Assembly: GCA_018667355.1 (NCBI GenBank)
Contig: JABIVC010000016.1
Span: forward strand, 62,001-126,000
Source of the DNA: Gammaproteobacteria bacterium
GTDB lineage: Bacteria; Pseudomonadota; Gammaproteobacteria; GCA-002705445; GCA-002716945
Direction: 5' to 3'
DNA: 64,000 nucleotides
Within the stretch, counting starts at the first letter, position 1; each line of letters begins with the position of its first letter. The position numbers and the translations under genes are program-made. Shown piece after piece: positions 27,264 to 29,235 of the stretch. The notes under the pieces were generated by a model. The model searched no databases. It worked only from the letters and a program-made list of their open reading frames with translations, and was not told where the DNA came from.

Positions 27264-27785
27264 TTATAAATAACTATTCTTTAAATCAACATATCCTGCT
27301 GCTGAATATTTTAAAAATTCCAACTCTTTGTCTGATAGTTTTCTTAACTTTTTTGCGGGACTGCCTACATAAAGGTATCCGCTCTCCATAATCTTCCCAG
27401 GTCCTACTAAAGCTCCAGCAGCAATCATACATTCAGATTTTATAATCGCTCCGTCTAGAATAATACTTCCCATGCCAACGAGTACAGTATTTTCTATTGT
27501 ACATGCATGAATAATTGCTGAATGTCCTATCGTCACATCATTACCAATAGCTAATGGATATCCATCTTTACAGAATTTTCCAGCATGTGTGACATGTAAA
27601 ATAGAACCATCTTGCACATTAGTTCTTTCACCAATAGTAATACTATTAATGTCTCCTCTTGCTACAGCCTGTGGCCATAATGCGCTATCTTTACCTATTT
27701 TTACATTTCCTATTACTGTTGCTTGCTCATCAATATAAGCGCTGGAATGAATATTGGGTTTTTTGTTATTGAAGCTTCTAATCAT
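27264..27785 (-). CDS. Gamma-carbonic anhydrase family protein (YrdA-like)
   Basis: The 173-residue protein is a left-handed beta-helix of hexapeptide repeats (IGNVKIGKDSALW, VARGDINSITIGERTNVQDGSILH). Probable zinc histidines lie in LHVTHAG and GHSAIIHAC. YrdA-like members often lack measurable carbonic anhydrase activity, so the function is uncertain. In many gammaproteobacteria it sits beside aroE, as here. It is divergent from the Fae homologue. Confidence 0.92.
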   Translation of the reverse strand: MIRSFNNKKPNIHSSAYIDEQATVIGNVKIGKDSALWPQAVARGDINSITIGERTNVQDGSILHVTHAGKFCKDGYPLAIGNDVTIGHSAIIHACTIENTVLVGMGSIILDGAIIKSECMIAAGALVGPGKIMESGYLYVGSPAKKLRKLSDKELEFLKYSAAGYVDLKNSYL

Positions 27786-27851: not shown

Positions 27852-28400
27852 ATGAATGAAAAATTTGGAATGAAAATCGGTGAGTCTTTAGTTGCGGGTG
27901 GTCCTGCTGGAACTGCGGCAGAGCCAGAGGTCGTAATTGGTGAACTTGACGGACCATTTGGTACTGCTTTTGCTAATTTAATGGGAAATCAATCAAAAGG
28001 GCACTCCAAGGTGCTAGCAATAATGAATACAGATATAATGGTTAAGCCTGCAACACTTATGGTCAGCAAGGTAACTGTTAAGGAAAATAGGTATACAAAT
28101 ATTTTAATGGGCACTGTCCAGGCTGCTATTGCAAATGGCGTGCTAGATTCTGTAAGGAATGGAGATATACCTAAGGAAAAAGCCAATGAACTTGGAGTAA
28201 TTGTGTCAGTTTGGCTAAACCCATCTGTTGCTACTGATGACAAACTTGATCATAAAATTCTTTTTGATATTCATAGGAAGGCAACTAGCCAGGCAATCAA
28301 TAAGGCAATGAACAATAAGCCTGACATAGACTGGTTGCTTGACAATCAAGAGTCTATAATTCATAAATATTTTCAAATGGGATTAGATGGAAAGATTTAG
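27852..28400 (+). CDS. Formaldehyde-activating enzyme (Fae) homologue lacking the catalytic histidine
   Basis: The 182-residue protein aligns along its length with Fae, the enzyme that condenses formaldehyde with tetrahydromethanopterin. Shared features are GESLVAGG near the N-terminus, FGTAFANLM, KPATLMVSKVT and the VQAAIANGVLDSV helix. In Fae the N-terminal motif is AHIDLIIG with the catalytic His; here the equivalent segment is AEPEVVIG and position 24 is Glu. The WEAADD segment of Fae is reduced to NPSVATDD. It is thus a divergent paralogue-type protein. No tetrahydromethanopterin genes are in the window. The stop overlaps the ubiA start by 14 bases, so it is coupled to quinone synthesis genes. 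Confidence 0.85.
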   Translation: MNEKFGMKIGESLVAGGPAGTAAEPEVVIGELDGPFGTAFANLMGNQSKGHSKVLAIMNTDIMVKPATLMVSKVTVKENRYTNILMGTVQAAIANGVLDSVRNGDIPKEKANELGVIVSVWLNPSVATDDKLDHKILFDIHRKATSQAINKAMNNKPDIDWLLDNQESIIHKYFQMGLDGKI

Positions 28401-29235
28401 ATTATATCTTCAATTAATGAGGGTAGATAAACCAATTGGTTTTTTCTTGTTGATGTGGCCAGTAATATGGGCGTTTATCGTGTCCACGCAAGGCAACCCT
28501 AATATTATATATTTAATAATATTTGCTGTTGGCATTGTCGCAACAAGATCAGCTGGGTGTATTATCAATGACTATTTTGATCAAGACTTTGATATTAAAG
28601 TAGAAAGGACAAAAAATAGAGTTCTTGCCTCTAAAAAAGTCTCTAATCAAGAAGCACTAATTTTATTTGGATTTCTCATTAGCATATGCTTTATATTATT
28701 ACTAATGTTGGGTTTTAAAATTATACTGCTAACAGTTTTTTCACTTGCGTTATTAATATTATATCCTCTAACCAAACGCTATTTTAAGGTACCGCAACTA
28801 ATTCTAGGGATGGCTTTTGGCTCGAGCATACCAATGGTTTTTGTACTAGAGAAAGGTTTCATAGACTCTAATTGCATACTTTTATATATTTTGACGATAA
28901 TTTGGGCCATTGTTTATGACACTTATTATGCAATGGCAGATAAAGATGATGATAAAAAGATTGGGATAAAATCATCTGCTATATTTTTTGGTAAGAATGA
29001 CATAGCTTATTCACTAAATTTACATTTTGTTGTTATAATCGGATTCATACTCCTAGGACTGATGAATTCATATACTTTTATATACTACTTATTTGTGGGA
29101 ATATCTGTTTTATGCATAATCTACCAAAATATTTTAGTTAGATCCAGGAAACCTTATCAGTGCATATCAGCTTTCGAAAATAATAATATCTTTGGATTAA
29201 TAATAACTTTTGGTCTAATATTTAACTATATTTAA
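28387..29235 (+). CDS. ubiA: 4-hydroxybenzoate polyprenyltransferase
   Basis: UbiA prenylates 4-hydroxybenzoate at the inner membrane in ubiquinone synthesis. The 282-residue, about nine-helix protein has the first Asp-rich Mg/diphosphate motif in NDYFDQDFD (near residues 60-68) and the second in [13 protein letters not shown] (near 178-190). The substrate-making enzyme UbiC is encoded separately at 43661-44191. The gene overlaps the Fae homologue by 14 bases and is 5 bases before bioB. Confidence 0.95.

Follow-up and report, generated by a model that had tools for sequence, protein, structure and literature searches.

A probable Fae3-type homologue of formaldehyde-activating enzyme with glutamate in place of the catalytic histidine in a streamlined gammaproteobacterium

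Formaldehyde-activating enzyme (Fae) condenses formaldehyde with tetrahydromethanopterin (H4MPT), a reaction that also occurs spontaneously. In the Fae of M. extorquens (PDB 1y5y and 1y60) the histidine of the AHIDLIIG motif is the catalytic residue, and Asp24, Leu53, Lys71, Thr73 and Gln88 are pterin contacts. Divergent homologues accompany the canonical enzyme in H4MPT methylotrophs, among them the Fae3 proteins of M. universalis FAM5, M. alcaliphilum 20ZR and Methylophilaceae (PMC5023235, PMC11748545, PMC4109929). All of the Methylophilaceae studied had fae2 and some had fae3 (PMC4109929). Knock-outs of fae3 showed no growth defect (PMC5023235, PMC11748545), although fae3 of M. universalis was up about ten-fold on methylamine (PMC5023235), and fae3 of M. 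alcaliphilum did not complement an M. extorquens Δfae1 mutant (PMC11748545). Deletion of a plasmid-borne fae2 in M. aquaticum 22A slowed growth on methanol (PMC7356819). Fae-like groups 2-4 have been described as being of unknown function (PMC11748545), and Fae homologues have been put forward as sensors (PMC3728764; PMC6277846). We found no passage on a missing histidine in the two papers characterising fae3, and a literature search returned no paper on it.

The gene described here lies in a window of 64,000 nucleotides within contig C15 of a gammaproteobacterial genome (1.03 Mb, 94% complete). It occupies 27852..28400 on the forward strand and encodes 182 amino acids. Judged by its profile matches, the product is a full-length member of the Fae superfamily, in line with the preliminary description: PF08714 scores 202.6 bits (E 4.7e-60, cut-off 27) over profile positions 1-158 of 159, and TIGR03126 scores 133.6 bits (cut-off 118.05). 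The AlphaFold2 model likewise has the predicted fold of Fae, its top five PDB matches all being Fae structures far ahead of the rest (best 1y5y/1y60, E 7e-14, TM 0.74-0.85). As the model came from a shallow alignment and has a moderate mean pLDDT of 62, the best of the five models standing well clear of the other four, no side-chain geometry was taken from it. The only sequence relatives in the PDB are 1y5y/1y60 and entries named Avd (8ub7 and others), in which a longer chain contains a Fae segment. A comparison with Hps fusions had been suggested; the archaeal Fae-Hps fusion (NF009833) shares the Fae domain, but the window protein scores 109.8 bits where the cut-off is 274, and Pfam and NCBIfam profiles found the Fae domain alone in its 182 residues, with no C-terminal Hps domain. 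A promoter and terminator scan gave nothing beyond chance.

The AEPEVVIG segment of the window protein aligns over AHIDLIIG of M. extorquens Fae without a gap, and Glu24 therefore takes the place of the catalytic histidine, His22, as had been claimed from the sequence alone. Its codon is GAG (27921-27923), within the Ala23-Glu24-Pro25-Glu26 codons at 27918..27929 (forward strand), and no other histidine occupies the position in this alignment. The protein thus has Glu24 where canonical Fae carries the histidine of AH(I/V)DL, proline where it has isoleucine and Glu26 where it has Asp24. It further differs from the M. extorquens enzyme by a five-residue insertion and another C-terminus, at about 30% identity, but shares its fold, a similar length and the equivalents of its pterin contacts Lys71, Thr73 and Gln88.

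Glutamate at the catalytic position defines a subfamily that we call E-type, in distinction from the canonical histidine-bearing H group. E-type members carry the motif AAEPEVVIG and share 78-94% identity across marine Gammaproteobacteria, Methylococcales and Methylophilaceae; identity falls to 71% for some Methylophilaceae copies and to 65% for a copy on a Methylobacterium plasmid. A second group without the histidine, the M-type, has methionine instead (motif DAMPEILIG) and occurs in Azospirillum, Caballeronia, Azoarcus, Phyllobacterium, Methylobacterium and Methylophilaceae. His22 is replaced by glutamate in 16/16 E-type sequences (40/40 in another alignment) and by methionine in 11/11 M-type sequences. 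Both groups have proline and glutamate after this position, and they form sister clades, with 40-45% identity between them. Lys71 and Gln88 are kept across H, E and M groups, as is Thr73 apart from serine in two of the 16 E-type sequences. In the tree, whose bootstrap had not fully converged, H separates from E plus M with support of 100/100, and the E- and M-type clades are supported at 98/95 and 97/69. The window protein falls in the E-type clade, outside histidine-type Fae. The view that it is a conserved paralogue whose function has probably changed is upheld. The E-type gene is under strong purifying selection; dN/dS of the window gene against close relatives is about 0.03, a rough value since dS exceeds 1. 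Besides E- and M-type genes, some Methylophilaceae carry adjacent pairs of Fae genes (G094:C6:179254-180376, G112:C7:841459-842580, G124:C1:1372519-1373641, G095:C2:92076-93185), each product about 30% identical to the window protein and apparently of the histidine type.

We infer that the E-type corresponds to Fae3 and the M-type to Fae2, because their distribution in Methylophilaceae, rather than a sequence match to the named fae3 genes, agrees with the published table (PMC4109929). The E-type is a divergent clade, patchy like Fae3 (28 of 49 genomes with mch), beside a near-universal, Fae2-like M-type (48 of 49). The M. aquaticum plasmid that carries fae2 holds one Fae gene, and it is M-type. 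On the same distribution, the published fae3 phenotypes would apply to E-type genes.

The window gene is not the only fae of its genome. A second, on contig C14, encodes a canonical Fae that bears the histidine (AHIDLIMG) and shares 63.5% identity with M. extorquens Fae and about 31% with the window protein. It is clustered with homologues of fhcC, fhcD, fhcA, fhcB, mptG, mch and mptN, and position and length alone led us to read a further gene of the cluster as mtdB. Matches to FhcB and to the mptG and mptN equivalogs stay under the curated cut-offs, and these three names therefore draw part of their support from the cluster. The preliminary description was right that the window holds no other H4MPT gene, as far as the nine pathway proteins tested go, but the isolated Fae homologue in a pathway-free genome that it pictured gives way to the cluster on C14. 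The genome search that it proposed thus found the complete pathway, though not one with the window gene as sole fae, because the canonical gene is on C14. The window gene is the second, altered fae copy of its genome, in what is probably an already named subfamily, Fae3. Both types occur in 19 of 25 genomes of the wider bacterial family (a count in which loci that were not extracted were typed by match length), the exceptions all being at or below 82% completeness, and the E-type is present in every genome of the host's bacterial family above 82%. In two genomes of the window's genus (L010 in G002, L016 in G004) the canonical Fae groups with other genera in the tree and the E-type with the window's genus; exchange of canonical fae within the bacterial family is possible.

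The neighbours of the gene differ from lineage to lineage. Downstream of the window gene, the ubiA gene for 4-hydroxybenzoate octaprenyltransferase (28387..29235, forward strand; TIGR01474, 300.9 bits) overlaps it by the 14 bases first described (28387..28400), and a gamma-carbonic-anhydrase-like hexapeptide protein (PF00132; NF050158 164.8 bits, under the cut-off of 250) is encoded divergently at 27264..27785 on the reverse strand; neither is counted as part of the function. A coupling to ubiA had been suggested, but adjacency is found in 19 of 80 loci, all with the same synteny and confined to the host's bacterial family, and the spacing in relatives runs from -74 to +7 (-14 in 5 of 19), so we set it aside as a functional clue. 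Elsewhere, E-type genes lie about 0.1-7 kb from fhc genes in seven Methylococcales loci and beside phosphate-transport genes in three loci labelled Alphaproteobacteria or SAR116, and in Azoarcus an M-type gene immediately follows fhcBADC. The Methylobacterium plasmid (CP029174.1) is conjugative, and on it the E-type gene adjoins genes for C1-producing enzymes: at L057:4508-13041 the genes for dimethylamine monooxygenase and N-methylglutamate synthase (mgs), gmaS, the E-type gene and a globin gene stand consecutively. At L121, a glutamate synthase gene considered as a link to mgs is the housekeeping gltB. The neighbourhoods compared revealed no partner gene common to all lineages.

Among 67 genomes with an E-type gene, mch was found in 59, and several of the remaining eight look like partial metagenome-assembled or single-cell genomes. 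Within 60 Methylophilaceae, 28 of the 49 genomes with mch carry the E-type, against one of the 11 without (Fisher p 0.006); for the M-type the figures are 48 of 49 and two of 11 (p 4e-8). All of these co-occurrence counts are uncorrected for phylogeny. E-type and M-type genes are nearly confined to mch-bearing genomes. Both mch and every type of Fae are absent from eight small Methylophilaceae genomes (1.3-1.4 Mb), in agreement with the absence of the H4MPT pathway from OM43 and Methylopumilus (PMC6794327).

Eleven of the 49 mch-bearing Methylophilaceae also have fhcD but no histidine-type Fae, all having been checked at the catalytic position (loci L226-L236, L242 and L245-L248). Six have the M-type only (G099, G097, G135, G083, G126, G134) and five have both E- and M-types (G106, G118, G129, G119, G089). 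Missing sequence is an unlikely cause in G097, G099 and G106, where the contigs bearing the matches measure at least 1.6-1.9 Mb, and one ecotype with the pathway but no true Fae has been named previously (PMC4109929). As no other Fae-family protein is present in the eleven, it is conceivable, if rather doubtful, that histidine-free Fae proteins are functional H4MPT-pathway enzymes and that methionine- or glutamate-type Fae performs its first step, by a different mechanism, in at least 11 Methylophilaceae genomes.

Unlike the described Fae3 hosts, the window's host shows neither gmaS nor a PQQ methanol dehydrogenase over cut-off in its genome, and gmaS is likewise not found over cut-off in its bacterial family, so that neither the N-methylglutamate pathway nor methanol oxidation of this kind was retained as an explanation. 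A search for a folate-dependent demethylase of the GcvT family gave one weak match of about 307 amino acids, which looks like YgfZ. The fhc/H4MPT cluster on C14 directly adjoins a C-terminal fragment of SBP56 (methanethiol oxidase), left incomplete near the contig end and followed by a SCO1-MauG fusion and by a thioredoxin-like gene (L003:161-3166). Published mtoX operons have a similar arrangement (PMC5739008), and from these neighbours methanethiol oxidase is a likely formaldehyde source, so that methanethiol may feed the H4MPT pathway of this streamlined gammaproteobacterium. Apparent sox genes lie further along C14.

How might the two proteins divide the work? Most of the formaldehyde is presumably condensed with H4MPT by the canonical Fae on C14. 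The Fae3 protein, in which Glu-Pro-Glu replaces His-Ile-Asp, retains the fold and most pterin-binding residues. Its ligand is most likely that same C1-H4MPT adduct, for which the kept residues and the association with mch both argue; the lost histidine and the failure to complement speak against a part in bulk condensation. It could act by slow or reverse exchange between formaldehyde and methylene-H4MPT, or by exchanging C1 units between H4F and H4MPT. What fits best is an auxiliary role on this adduct, whether in transfer, release or sensing, and we give about an even chance to the Fae3 paralogue being an auxiliary C1-handling protein of this kind. The fold, the purifying selection, the fhc genes near seven Methylococcales loci, the C1-producing enzymes encoded beside the plasmid copy and the eleven genomes with histidine-free Fae only also count in its favour; the fae3 knock-outs that grow normally, the failed complementation, the lack of a partner gene shared between lineages and the eight E-type genomes in which mch was not found count against it. 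The same ligand evidence, with the lost histidine and failed complementation, leads us to favour this reading and leaves a non-catalytic sensor or regulator as its main rival. Here the Fae fold would bind the methylene-H4MPT adduct or formaldehyde and signal C1 load without turnover. Loss of the histidine in both E and M subfamilies would suit such a protein, as would a fae3 that gives no growth phenotype and does not replace fae1 (PMC11748545) and the sensing already proposed for homologues (PMC3728764; PMC6277846). We nevertheless consider it somewhat unlikely, as no conserved regulator or partner adjoins the gene and the invariance of Glu24 suggests a chemical, more than a purely structural, role.

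The Methylophilaceae without histidine-type Fae raise the converse possibility, that M-type and perhaps E-type proteins condense formaldehyde, with Glu24 or Glu26 as acid, and can substitute for canonical Fae. The eleven genomes that keep mch, fhcD and an M-type gene, five with an E-type as well, and the ecotype without true Fae (PMC4109929) speak for such an enzyme. The failure of M. alcaliphilum fae3 in complementation (PMC11748545) speaks against it, the M-type has methionine and no acid at the catalytic position, and since condensation is also spontaneous, the pathway may run enzyme-free; we regard this substitution as unlikely. Recruitment of the fold to another aldehyde or carrier unrelated to H4MPT, which the preliminary description had raised, could account for the changed active site and for the low identity, about 31%, between the window protein and its canonical counterpart on C14. 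We hold it improbable, the sequence speaking more against another carrier than against another aldehyde: the pterin-contact residues are kept, E- and M-types track mch, and genomes with mch and fhcD but no histidine-type Fae retain them; the small Methylophilaceae genomes that lack mch have also lost every Fae type. A degenerate pseudo-enzyme on its way to loss would explain the missing catalytic residue, but a dN/dS near 0.03, presence in all the more complete genomes of the family and about 80% identity across lineages make it highly improbable.

Fae2 and Fae3 have carried names for years without a function, and a single motif now separates the H, E and M subfamilies. Automatic annotation labels the E-type as formaldehyde-activating enzyme despite the absent catalytic residue. 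Both types that lack the histidine track the H4MPT pathway, and the methylotrophs that bear the pathway without a histidine-type Fae provide a natural test case, which is the part of these findings most worth following.
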